A stretch of DNA of 48,892 nt from Synechococcus sp. RedBA-s (lineage in GTDB: Bacteria; Cyanobacteriota; Cyanobacteriia; PCC-6307; Cyanobiaceae): the NCBI RefSeq assembly GCF_024345495.1, contig NZ_JAGQBF010000024.1, positions 1 to 48,892 of the forward strand. The letters run 5' to 3'. The notes under the pieces are model-generated. The model was not told the origin of the DNA, did not search any database, and saw only the letters and a program-made list of their open reading frames with translations. Every line of letters begins with the position of its first letter. Positions within the stretch are counted from its first letter, which is position 1. Position numbers and translations under genes: made by a program. Of the stretch, positions 12,710 to 15,660 are shown in pieces.

Positions 12710-12797
12710 ATCAGCGCTGTAATCTCCTCTCTCCAGGTTTGAAAGCTTCACCGTGCGATCAGAATGGTTCCCCGTCCACCCCCAGCAGAGGCCCTTG

Positions 12798-14417
12798 ATG
12801 GAGAAGCCGGTCGTGGCCGCCAACGAACCCATTGCCGTTGAGCTGAAGAAAGGAAAAACTTATCTCTATTGCACCTGCGGCCGCTCGAAGGATCAACCGT
12901 TCTGCGACGGCTCCCACCAGGGCAGTGGATTCTCGCCCCAGTCCTTCACGGCCAACTCCGATGGAGAAACCTGGCTCTGCCGCTGCAAGCAGACGGGCCA
13001 TGCACCCTATTGCGATGGCAGCCATGCCCAGGTGCCAGCCGAGCTGGTGGGGCAGAACGTCTCCCTCACCAGTGCAACCAAATCGCCCGAAGAACCCGAG
13101 GACCAGGACCCGACTCGGCCTGACCAGGACCCTGACCAGGATCTGATGCCGGAGCCCCATCCCACGGCTGAGGAACCCGCGCTGACCCTCATCCACGAAC
13201 TTGCCGAGCACGGGCTGGAGCACGTGGGGCCCCAGGGGCCGATCGCGGCGATGGGGGTTCCCCGCAGGGAGCTGCCCAACTGGGATCACCTCCAGATTCT
13301 GGTGGCCCAGCTGGCTAGGCAGCCACTGCAGAACGACGCGCCGGTCGCCACGGAGCTGGTGCTGGGTCCGCAGGCCGCCAAGCCTCTACATCTGCGGATT
13401 CCGCTCTTCGTGTCCGACATGAGTTTCGGCGCCCTCTCCGAGGAGGCGAAGGTGTCCCTGGCGCGGGGAGCCGAACAGGCTGGAACAGGCATCTGCTCAG
13501 GGGAGGGGGGCATGCTTCCCGAAGAAAAGGCAGCCAACAGCCGCTATCTCTATGAGCTTGCCCCGGGACGATTCGGCTACCGAGAGGAGCTGCTCGAACA
13601 GGTCCAGGCGTTCCACTTCAAGTGCGGGCAGGCGGCGAAGACCGGAGCCGGAGGCCACCTGCCCGGCATCAAGACCACTGCTCGAATTGCGGCGTTGCGC
13701 GGCGTTCCTGTGGGCGAGCCGGTGATCTCTCCGCCAACCTTCACGGATCTGAGCACGGTGGATGATTTCCGTCGATTCGCCGACCGGGTGCGGGAGATCA
13801 GTGGCGGGATCCCCGTGGGCTTCAAGATCAGCGCCCAGCACATCGAAGCTGATCTGGATTTCGCCATCGACGCCGGAGCCGATTACATCATTCTCGATGG
13901 ACGGGGTGGCGGCACCGGGGCGGCGCCCCTGCTGTTCCGGGATCACATCTCGGTTCCCACTATCCCTGCCCTGGCGCGGGCGCGCCGCCATCTGGACCGC
14001 CGCGAGGCCAGCGGCCGCGTGACCCTGATCATCACGGGTGGTCTTCGCACCCACGCCGATTGCATCAAGGCCATGGCCCTGGGCGCCGATGGGATCGCTC
14101 TGGCGAATGCCTCGATCCAGGCGATCGGCTGCGTCGGCGCCCGCCTCTGTCACACGAACAACTGTCCGGCCGGTATCGCCACCCAGGATGCGGAGCTTCG
14201 GCGGAGGCTGAACATCGACCATGCCTCCGATCGCCTGGCCCGTTTCTTCGAGGCAACTGTGGCGCTGATGCAGGTCATGGCCCGTGCCTGCGGCCACACC
14301 ACGCTCCAGGGCTTCAACAGAAATGACCTGACCAGCTGGCATCGAGACCTGGCGGAGCTGGCCGGCATCGCCTGGTGTGGAGTTGAGCCGGAACGGCCCC
14401 CCGGAACAAACTCCTAG
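12798..14417 (+). CDS. CDGSH iron-sulfur domains fused to glutamate-synthase FMN domain
   Basis: Numbered from ATG 12798 (MEKPVVAANEPIAVELKKG) the product has 539 residues. An open frame from a GTG at 12753 adds 15 poorly supported residues. Residues 20-76 hold two CDGSH-type 2Fe-2S motifs, CTCGRSKDQPFCDGSH (Cys25, Cys27, Cys36, His40) and CRCKQTGHAPYCDGSH (Cys61, Cys63, Cys72, His76), arranged like tandem MitoNEET/CISD3 proteins. A 50-residue acidic linker (EEPEDQDPTRPDQDPDQD) follows. From about 150 to the end is the FMN-binding barrel of GltB: FVSDMSFGALSEEAKVSLAR, GEGGMLPEE, FKCGQAAKTGAGGHLPG, IILDGRGGGTGAAPL, CHTNNCPAGIATQD. The glutamine amidotransferase domain is absent, and no gltD neighbour is seen. 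It may be a redox enzyme that accepts electrons through the CDGSH clusters; substrate unknown. Confidence 0.88.
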   Translation: MEKPVVAANEPIAVELKKGKTYLYCTCGRSKDQPFCDGSHQGSGFSPQSFTANSDGETWLCRCKQTGHAPYCDGSHAQVPAELVGQNVSLTSATKSPEEPEDQDPTRPDQDPDQDLMPEPHPTAEEPALTLIHELAEHGLEHVGPQGPIAAMGVPRRELPNWDHLQILVAQLARQPLQNDAPVATELVLGPQAAKPLHLRIPLFVSDMSFGALSEEAKVSLARGAEQAGTGICSGEGGMLPEEKAANSRYLYELAPGRFGYREELLEQVQAFHFKCGQAAKTGAGGHLPGIKTTARIAALRGVPVGEPVISPPTFTDLSTVDDFRRFADRVREISGGIPVGFKISAQHIEADLDFAIDAGADYIILDGRGGGTGAAPLLFRDHISVPTIPALARARRHLDRREASGRVTLIITGGLRTHADCIKAMALGADGIALANASIQAIGCVGARLCHTNNCPAGIATQDAELRRRLNIDHASDRLARFFEATVALMQVMARACGHTTLQGFNRNDLTSWHRDLAELAGIAWCGVEPERPPGTNS

Positions 14418-14446: not shown

Positions 14447-14917
14447 GTGGGCAAGGCCATTCAGGTTGGTGAGAAGGCTCCCCTGATCGATTTGAAGGAT
14501 CAGAACGGCAGCGCGCGCCGCAGTGATCAGCTCGCCGGCCACCCCCTGGTGCTGTTCTTCTATCCCAAGGACGACACCCCTGGCTGCACGATGGAGGCCT
14601 GCGCCTTCCGCGACAATTACGCCGCTCTGCAGGCCCTCGGCGCTGAGGTCTGGGGCGTGAGCGGCGATGACACTGCCAGCCACGGGCGCTTCTCCCAACG
14701 GCACCAGCTTCCTTATCCGCTGCTGGTGGACCAGGGCAACAGCCTGCGCCAGGCCTTCGGCGTGCCCGGCGCCCTGCTCAACCTGCTGCCGGGCCGTGTC
14801 ACCTATGTGATCGATGGCGAGGGCGTGGTGCGCCACGTGTTCAGCAACCTGTTGGATGGGCCGGCCCATGCCCGTGAGGCCATGGCCGCCCTGCAGCGGC
14901 TGGCTCCCCAGGCCTGA
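14447..14917 (+). CDS. bcp: Peroxiredoxin Q (bacterioferritin comigratory protein)
   Basis: A thiol peroxidase of the AhpC/TSA superfamily, 156 residues from a GTG start. The active site FYPKDDTPGCTMEACAF carries the peroxidatic Cys47 and the PrxQ-type resolving Cys52. Other family blocks are QLAGHPLVLFFYP, WGVSGDDTASHGRF and RVTYVIDGEGVV. It reduces H2O2 and organic peroxides using thioredoxin or glutathione-like partners. It starts 30 bp after the CDGSH-glutamate synthase gene on the same strand, suggesting co-expression with an iron-sulfur enzyme sensitive to peroxide. The DUF1350 gene follows 5 bp later. Confidence 0.92.
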   Translation: MGKAIQVGEKAPLIDLKDQNGSARRSDQLAGHPLVLFFYPKDDTPGCTMEACAFRDNYAALQALGAEVWGVSGDDTASHGRFSQRHQLPYPLLVDQGNSLRQAFGVPGALLNLLPGRVTYVIDGEGVVRHVFSNLLDGPAHAREAMAALQRLAPQA

Positions 14918-14922
14918 GCGCC

Positions 14923-15660
14923 GTGAGTCGCTGGCGTCAGCAGGGGCCTCTCTGGTGCCTGGATCCGCCCGAGTCATCGGGTGTGATCGAGTTCATCGGC
15001 GGCAGTGTGCTGGCGGCCACCCCCCAGATCAGCTACCGCAGGCTGCTGGAGGCCTTGTGCCGGCGTGGGCTCAGCCTGCGGGCCTGGAGTTATGTGCCGG
15101 GGTTCGACCATCAGGCCCAGGCCACCGAAGCCTGGCGCGCCTTTCGCGGGGCGCGGCAGGGCCCAGGCGCAGCCTCGGCGCTGCCGGTGCTGCGCCTGGG
15201 CCACAGCCTCGGGTGCAAGCTGCATCTGCTGGCCCCGGACGGGGGCCGGGGCAGCAGTGCCCTGGCGGCCATGAGCTTCAACAACTTCTCCGCTGATCGC
15301 TCGATCCCTCTGCTGGCCGACTTGGCGCCTCGGCTGGGGGTGCGCACGGAATTCAGCCCCTCACCACAGGAAACCCTGCGCTTGGTGGGCCAGCTCTACG
15401 GCGTCCCCCGCAACCTGCTGATCCGATTCGGCAGCGATGCTCTCGACCAGAGCCCCCCCCTGCTGGCGGTGCTGCAGCAGCGCCCCGGTGACGACAGCTC
15501 CCTGCTGCAGCTGGGTGGCGACCACCTCACCCCCGCCAGCGCCGGCCTGCGCCAGAACCTGCTGGGCAGCTGGGCGGATGACCCCCAGCGCCAGCGCCAG
15601 ATTGATCGCCTGGCCGCCGCGATCGACGGTTGGTGGCGCCTGGGCGAGCAGTCGGGCTGA
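14923..15660 (+). CDS. DUF1350 family protein (alpha/beta-hydrolase fold)
   Basis: The product has 245 residues. It shows the DUF1350 opening (VIEFIGGSVLAATPQISYRRLLE), the nucleophile-elbow-like RLGHSLGCKLHLL, where the Ser in GHSLG is the expected catalytic residue, and MSFNNFSADRSIPLLADL. A late LGGDHLTPAS could supply the His of a catalytic triad. DUF1350 proteins occur in cyanobacteria and chloroplasts and are poorly characterised. The start GTG at 14923 lies 5 bp after the bcp stop, so the genes probably form one transcript. The acs gene on the other strand ends 45 bp further on. Confidence 0.87.
   Translation: MSRWRQQGPLWCLDPPESSGVIEFIGGSVLAATPQISYRRLLEALCRRGLSLRAWSYVPGFDHQAQATEAWRAFRGARQGPGAASALPVLRLGHSLGCKLHLLAPDGGRGSSALAAMSFNNFSADRSIPLLADLAPRLGVRTEFSPSPQETLRLVGQLYGVPRNLLIRFGSDALDQSPPLLAVLQQRPGDDSSLLQLGGDHLTPASAGLRQNLLGSWADDPQRQRQIDRLAAAIDGWWRLGEQSG

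Follow-up and report, generated by a model that had tools for sequence, protein, structure and literature searches.

The window, i.e., the whole stretch of 48,892 nucleotides that was analysed, encodes a protein with two CDGSH motifs and an FMN domain of the glutamate synthase type (Table 1). The gene lies in a single open frame on the forward strand (12753-14417, 554 aa). We placed its start at the ATG in 12798 because the resulting N-terminus (MEKPVV...) resembles that of the relatives (MSKPIV...); the GTG at 12753 is a possible longer start. Pfam matched zf-CDGSH in two stretches (3.9e-18) and Glu_synthase over the barrel, both beyond the cut-off. The two motifs are complete (3Cys-1His), and the spacing from H55 to C76 is 20 residues, as in type 5 CISD proteins. 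In an alignment with the GltS of A. brasilense, the cysteines C460, C466 and C471 correspond to its residues 1102, 1108 and 1113, which we take to be the [3Fe-4S] ligands of that enzyme. The amidotransferase family was absent from the Pfam matches of the protein, and no GltD domain was found within the gene itself. The Pfam matches, the ligands and the cysteine triad thus confirm a preliminary description of this DNA, made from the letters, that had reported tandem CDGSH motifs ahead of a GltB-type FMN/[3Fe-4S] domain and a missing amidotransferase domain.

Table 1. Features of the locus, with their positions in the window.
Feature	Position	Strand	Basis and remarks
CDGSH2-FMN protein (type 5 CISD)	12798..14417	+	539 aa from ATG 12798; start by homology
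First CDGSH motif	12870..12917	+	Pfam; ligands C40, C42, C51, H55 (numbered from GTG 12753)
Second CDGSH motif	12978..13025	+	Pfam; ligands C76, C78, C87, H91
Linker, acidic and Pro-rich, partly predicted flexible	13071..13172	+	pLDDT <50 at model residues 92-103
GltB-type FMN barrel	13173..14378	+	Pfam Glu_synthase 4.3e-89; structural match to 1ofd
Substrate-pocket stretch K290, Q293, K296, H302 (Gln in GltB), R316	13620..13700	+	Alignment
[3Fe-4S] cysteine triad C460, C466, C471	14130..14165	+	Alignment
PrxQ/Bcp-type peroxiredoxin	14447..14917	+	Pfam; starts 30 bp downstream of the CDGSH2-FMN gene

Among solved chains, the FMN part is closest to the large subunits of GltS (6e-39 to 9.5e-36). 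The N-terminus matched 3tbn, a "putative uncharacterized protein" (1.3e-20, spanning both motifs), and human CISD3 (6avj, 3.3e-19). The AlphaFold2 model (80 sequences; mean pLDDT 90.0, pTM 0.79) is confident in the CDGSH region and the barrel, and loose in the linker. VIA-align superposed the modelled barrel on the GltS of Synechocystis (1ofd) with a Z of 38.1 and an rmsd of 2.8 over 389 aligned residues (28% identity). The VIA-align list barely reaches the CDGSH part of the model, and the fold of this part is assigned from the sequence match to 3tbn. Two more CDGSH-like stretches occur in the same genome (C60:57851-58078 and C60:83460-83516), one tandem (in a 146-aa frame) and one weak (21.6 bits, below the Pfam cut-off), and the host may have further CDGSH proteins.

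Conserved ligands and a published architecture

We studied the conservation of the cluster ligands in the best 80 of the 576 confirmed loci of a genome-collection scan, a set biased to CDGSH forms. Two complete 3Cys-1His motifs were present in 79 of these 80 proteins and the C-x5-C-x4-C triad in all 80; the exception is L049, where a Cys of the second motif is replaced by Trp. An 82-protein alignment that omits near copies and two proteins with odd motifs (L047, L048, L049, L059, L066 and L113) showed no variation in the eight CDGSH ligands or the triad. Chance would not be a sensible account of such conservation. The doubt raised in the preliminary description, that the CDGSH cysteines might vary among homologues, can thus be set aside. 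In Halomonas ventosae (L059:4956-6893), four CDGSH motifs precede the FMN domain and the tandem pair appears duplicated.

In the substrate pocket, the stretch from K290 to R316 is presumably the 2-OG contact. Glu231, Lys290, Gln293, Lys296 and Arg316 were as in GltB in 34/34 CDGSH forms and in 18/18 Rieske forms of the main clade (see below), and Lys296 and Arg316 were kept in 13 of the 14 rubredoxin forms. The aligned Gln position, which we take to be Gln978 of GltS, is His in 30/34 CDGSH and 18/18 Rieske forms, and Glu in a second Rieske clade. In cousins at 37% identity, Asn takes the place of Glu231 and Val that of Lys290. Since the GltB-like pocket residues are kept, a ligand resembling glutamate or 2-oxoglutarate is plausible.

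The protein does not take the place of GOGAT. A full-length GltS (1544-aa frame) is encoded on another contig of the same genome, full-length frames (1544-1562 aa) were found in all eight same-genus genomes searched, and four of five other genomes searched also had one (in G339 nothing that long was found at E <= 1e-20). We therefore rejected the CDGSH2-FMN protein as a GOGAT replacement. The co-existing enzyme and the absent amidotransferase domain support the earlier view that it is not an ordinary GOGAT.

A search for other CDGSH+GltB proteins returned many, and their architecture is in print. Proteins with tandem CDGSH motifs and a C-terminal GltS FMN domain were named type 5 CISD and reported from 32 bacterial species (PLoS One 2011, PMC3174974). 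Class II CDGSH proteins with Glu_synthase and FMN_dh domains were described in cyanobacteria, where they group with the proteobacterial ones, and horizontal transfer was suggested for them (Sci Rep 2018, PMC5859297). The accessible text of these two papers states no function for type 5 CISD and mentions no sister proteins in which the FMN domain carries a Rieske or rubredoxin module. The window protein is therefore a further member of a published and named architecture, which is itself not new. We found no published reaction, measured potential or cofactor for a CDGSH-type member in the literature, and neither the Rieske form of the FMN protein nor the module-bearing TPP enzyme described below in the open-access literature (subscription papers were mostly outside this scope). 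The family is thus half defined, on the point of prior biochemical definition raised by the preliminary description: the architecture is published, and CD0828 of Clostridioides difficile, which has the same layout with a rubredoxin, is partly characterised. The exchange of modules with Rieske domains and the TPP partner raise the interest of the protein beyond that of a known fusion.

Among cyanobacteria, the type 5 gene is present in six of eight same-genus genomes and intact in one (G013) of 28 other genomes of the same family, several of which are incomplete. In a sample of the phylum, 5/292 genomes reached E <= 1e-50, with close homologues in two (the window's own and G013). A genome of another genus of the family (G031, L018) has a broken type 5 gene, split over frames and with part of the barrel missing.

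N-terminal modules of the FMN-domain family

We searched with the FMN domain only (E <= 1e-80) one gammaproteobacterial sample of 369 genomes and one Verrucomicrobiota sample of 288. The former gave 55 matching genomes, which by motif carry CDGSH (39) or Rieske (15) modules, with one not read (G395). The latter gave 20, with CDGSH (4), Rieske (2) or rubredoxin (13) modules and one fragment (G828). Hence, an N-terminal one-electron module was found in 73/73 readable genomes with a homologue (tandem CDGSH in 43, Rieske in 17, rubredoxin in 13), a tally that leaves out G395, G828 and the second copies in G340 and G387. The window protein shares this trait, with its CDGSH pair as the one-electron module ahead of the FMN domain. 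Pfam applied to 70 chosen proteins, 14 of them rubredoxin rows, gave counts of 34 for zf-CDGSH, 21 for Rieske, 11 for Rubredoxin and 11 for RUBY_RBDX. Beyond the two samples, Rieske forms occur in three haloarchaeal plasmids and in the cyanobacterium G041, and Monoglobus has a rubredoxin-like motif (RUBY_RBDX at 23 bits, below its Pfam cut-off). None of the three modules was found by motif in cousins at 32-37% identity. A plasmid of Pseudoalteromonas sp. NC201 (L045:5932-8073) encodes the FMN domain with no N-terminal module and with a C-terminal FGE-sulfatase (SUMF1-like) domain; Asn replaces Glu231 in this protein.

We built a tree of 79 FMN domains, nine of them outgroups. The rubredoxin forms make up one clade (100/99). 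The Rieske module needs two changes, also over the 5-95% range of the bootstrap trees, and at least two are required by the starred branches, either as separate gains or as one gain followed or preceded by one loss. A quick tree places the larger Rieske clade (18 rows, SH-aLRT 98) within the CDGSH radiation, where the surrounding branches are moderately supported (83-93). We are unsure of the join of the rubredoxin and second Rieske clades, where long branches meet. Three changes are enough to account for the three modules on the tree. Judged by these sequences, the family is one catalytic core with different one-electron modules, and their exchange suggests that the CDGSH part would be an electrical connector and not a glutamate-making part.

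Neighbouring genes

The preliminary description had noted that peroxiredoxin Q follows in what looks like the same operon. The position holds, with both genes on the same strand and 30 bp apart, but among 110 loci with flanks of varying length the adjacency is limited to three close kin (the window, L047 and L048). The only other matches to the window PrxQ in a tblastn search of the collected loci were a weak one (34%) beside L164 and one of 43% in L218, which comes from a distant cousin. We therefore rejected PrxQ as a functional partner across the family. A DUF1350 protein (window 14923-15660) begins 6 bp past PrxQ, and L047 and L048 also have it together with PrxQ and the type 5 gene. No promoter of the sigma-70 kind was detected between 12400 and 15900.

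The most recurrent neighbour occurs in at most 11 of the 110 loci (some neighbour clusters are unannotated). This absence of a widely recurring neighbour means that none indicates an acceptor for the CDGSH forms. The neighbours include LysR (11 loci), pirin (6), GST (4) and cytochrome b561 (4), a grouping that we take to be quinone-stress-like. It is at most suggestive, with frequencies that are low among the 110 loci. Seven loci (L051, L074, L076, L084, L095, L096 and L106) have CDGSH-FMN genes near at least one of these four.

A PoxB-like TPP enzyme is encoded at 5 kb or less from the FMN gene in 6/110 loci; it is next door in L064, L206 and L214, and the largest distance is 4.2 kb, in L042. 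Its best solved match is 3eya, the E. coli pyruvate dehydrogenase [cytochrome]. These TPP enzymes carry N-terminal modules of their own, which are Rieske domains where the nearby FMN gene is of the Rieske type. In L064 (2686-4932), the TPP enzyme has a tandem CDGSH and a Rieske domain at its N-terminus and adjoins a CDGSH-FMN gene. Its CDGSH module is closest to that of its own neighbour (76%, first of 131). The Rieske modules of partner pairs are just 24-33% alike where alignable, and the TPP cores of different groups are 55-67% identical. The haloarchaeal plasmids L042 and L043 encode a Rieske-FMN gene, a Rieske-TPP gene, a TauE-type exporter and a mercury(II) reductase in one region; L042 additionally encodes a sodium:proton antiporter.

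We examined 13 rubredoxin-type loci of Verrucomicrobiota with wider flanks. A TPP enzyme with two rubredoxins is next door in four of them, and a rubrerythrin lies within two genes in nine (Pfam-checked on three), five of which also have a Fur/PerR gene (Pfam-checked on two). In L234, L235, L238 and L241, a double-rubredoxin TPP enzyme, the rubredoxin-FMN protein, a Fur/PerR gene and a rubrerythrin form an operon-like run.

The two proteins have a common type of module in all ten FMN/TPP pairs within 5 kb, pairs that are not independent (close kinship links the four rubredoxin loci, and also the two haloarchaea). Among further genomes with both proteins, the modules match in G432 and G630 and differ in G625 (CDGSH vs Rieske); in G682 the start of the TPP gene is cut off. 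The TPP enzyme occurs in 10/75 genomes with the FMN family vs 0/75 without (Fisher p 0.0014, in a test that ignores kinship and with control genomes that include many smaller ones). It was not found in the window's genus, which has only relatives at about 32%. We propose, tentatively and as something that may well prove wrong, that the FMN/[3Fe-4S] core belongs to a widespread family with three exchangeable connectors, that a PoxB-like TPP enzyme within 5 kb wears the same kind of connector, and that together they might make up an unrecognised two-enzyme route draining electrons from amino and keto acids to one common acceptor that handles peroxide or oxygen, each connector suiting an aerobic or anaerobic host.

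Direction of electron flow and related systems

Rieske and rubredoxin centres usually have higher potentials than the FMN and [3Fe-4S] centres of GltS. In GltS with 2-oxoglutarate, the FMN is at about -270 mV and the [3Fe-4S] cluster at about -190 mV (PMC8097209), whereas the mitoNEET cluster lies at about -30 to 0 mV (PMC9490426). FMNH2 reduces the [2Fe-2S] cluster of mitoNEET, which O2 or ubiquinone reoxidises (Wang, Landry and Ding, via PMC9490426). With these borrowed potentials, the path from donor to FMN, [3Fe-4S], CDGSH and acceptor would run downhill, so that the module would be an outlet; the analogy favours electrons flowing out through CDGSH. The PoxB-like enzyme should oxidise its substrate and bears the same kinds of module, which also points to an outlet. 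Hence, of the earlier proposal of a redox enzyme fed through the CDGSH clusters, the CDGSH-coupled redox enzyme fits, because the relatives carry other one-electron modules where it has CDGSH, but the inward direction is disfavoured by the published potentials.

From these comparisons we infer the electron direction, substrate, acceptor and physiological role of the window protein. We give an even chance to its being a dehydrogenase with FMN and [3Fe-4S] and an electron outlet that is tethered, exchangeable and of higher potential. A two-electron donor would reduce the FMN in the GltB-like pocket, our first guess being glutamate or a similar amino or keto diacid and our second NADH. The electrons would then pass singly from FMN to [3Fe-4S] and on to the tandem CDGSH [2Fe-2S] clusters at the N-terminus. 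On their flexible linker, these clusters would hand them to an outside acceptor, e.g., a peroxide- or quinone-handling partner, a quinone or O2. Rieske and rubredoxin domains would do the same job in the sister proteins. The reduction of CD0828 by NADH, which FMN speeds up, and the likeness of its mutant to the rubrerythrin mutant (PMC11980386; see below) speak for the outlet. Against the outlet count the slow transfer from CD0828 to Rbr and Sor (PMC11980386), the module-less protein of L045, the TPP partner being present in just 10/75 family genomes and absent from the window's genus, and the differing modules of G625. The strongest counter-argument is the pocket, which keeps the Glu, Lys and Arg of GltB and would suit reductive amination too.

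In an opposite reading, electrons would enter by way of CDGSH and reach the FMN, which would reduce an imino acid; this imino acid would arise from ammonia or an amine, free or delivered by a partner, and 2-oxoglutarate or another such keto acid. The stand-alone FMN subunits of N-methylglutamate synthase are a precedent, all five pocket residues listed above are those of GltB, and an archaeal GltS was described as a ferredoxin-type N-domain with a synthase domain (PMC2483277). We nevertheless regard such a reductive synthase as unlikely: the protein has no glutaminase domain and none was recognised among the annotated neighbours, the cluster potential of mitoNEET is above those of the FMN and [3Fe-4S] of GltS, the position of Gln978 is His in most CDGSH forms (30/34), and the genome has a full GOGAT. 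If the CDGSH pair were instead outside the electron path, it could be a device for sensing or for cluster transfer, through which redox, NO or pH would turn the FMN enzyme on or off. Binding of NO to the mitoNEET cluster inhibits its electron transfer (PMC9490426), and lability has been described for NEET clusters (PMC6006223). However, the rubredoxin and Rieske domains that occupy the CDGSH position in relatives have one-electron transfer in common with it, a likeness that sensing hardly explains, and we hold this reading to be very improbable.

Another reading draws on CD0828 of C. difficile (mBio 2025, PMC11980386), a 480-aa protein with a rubredoxin and a GltS-type FMN domain, encoded in the PerR-controlled rbr operon. 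CD0828 is reduced by NADH slowly, and faster with FMN, and its mutant is similar to the rbr mutant in the response to H2O2 and air; its authors considered a role as peroxidase donor (PMC11980386). By extension, the window protein would use NAD(P)H to supply peroxidases with electrons, as a reductase that has no NADH domain itself, and PrxQ or its reductant would be the client. PrxQ 30 bp downstream and the rubrerythrin and Fur/PerR genes near the verrucomicrobial rubredoxin forms agree with it. However, reduction of CD0828 by NADH is slow, its transfer to Rbr and Sor was judged too slow for a physiological partner, the mutant is not menadione-sensitive (PMC11980386), and the PrxQ linkage is restricted to close kin. 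We thus hold a peroxidase donor to be distinctly improbable and retain the dehydrogenase with a CDGSH outlet as our preferred reading.

CDGSH (NEET) proteins matter in human disease, and electron transfer, sensing and cluster delivery are competing views of what their clusters do. A CDGSH pair covalently tied to an FMN enzyme, with Rieske or rubredoxin instead in the sister proteins, argues for electron transfer. Proteins of the window type provide a soluble system for measuring transfer from FMN to CDGSH. The puzzling CD0828 may gain a family, and the PoxB-like TPP enzyme is a possible partner for proteins of the window type.

The window protein can be set against four known systems. It has no structural difference from type 5 CISD, with which it shares the tandem CDGSH motifs about 20 residues apart and the C-terminal GltS FMN domain. 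It shares with the Fd- and NADPH-dependent glutamate synthases (GltB/GltS) the FMN barrel, the [3Fe-4S] triad and the pocket residues, but it is without their amidotransferase and other large domains, carries the CDGSH pair at its N-terminus, and shows His where the pocket of GltB has Gln. The mitoNEET/FMNH2 system uses the same pair of cofactors, with reduced FMN passing electrons to a CDGSH [2Fe-2S] cluster; there the FMN is free and each chain has one motif, whereas the window protein has both cofactors in one chain. By its published description, CD0828 is alike in its one-electron N-terminal module, linker and GltS-type FMN domain with C-x5-C-x4-C, and the rubredoxin forms of the family are often near rubrerythrin and Fur/PerR genes, as is CD0828. 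It differs in having a rubredoxin and in lying in an rbr-perR-sor operon, whereas the window protein has CDGSH motifs and, by Pfam, no rubredoxin N-domain.
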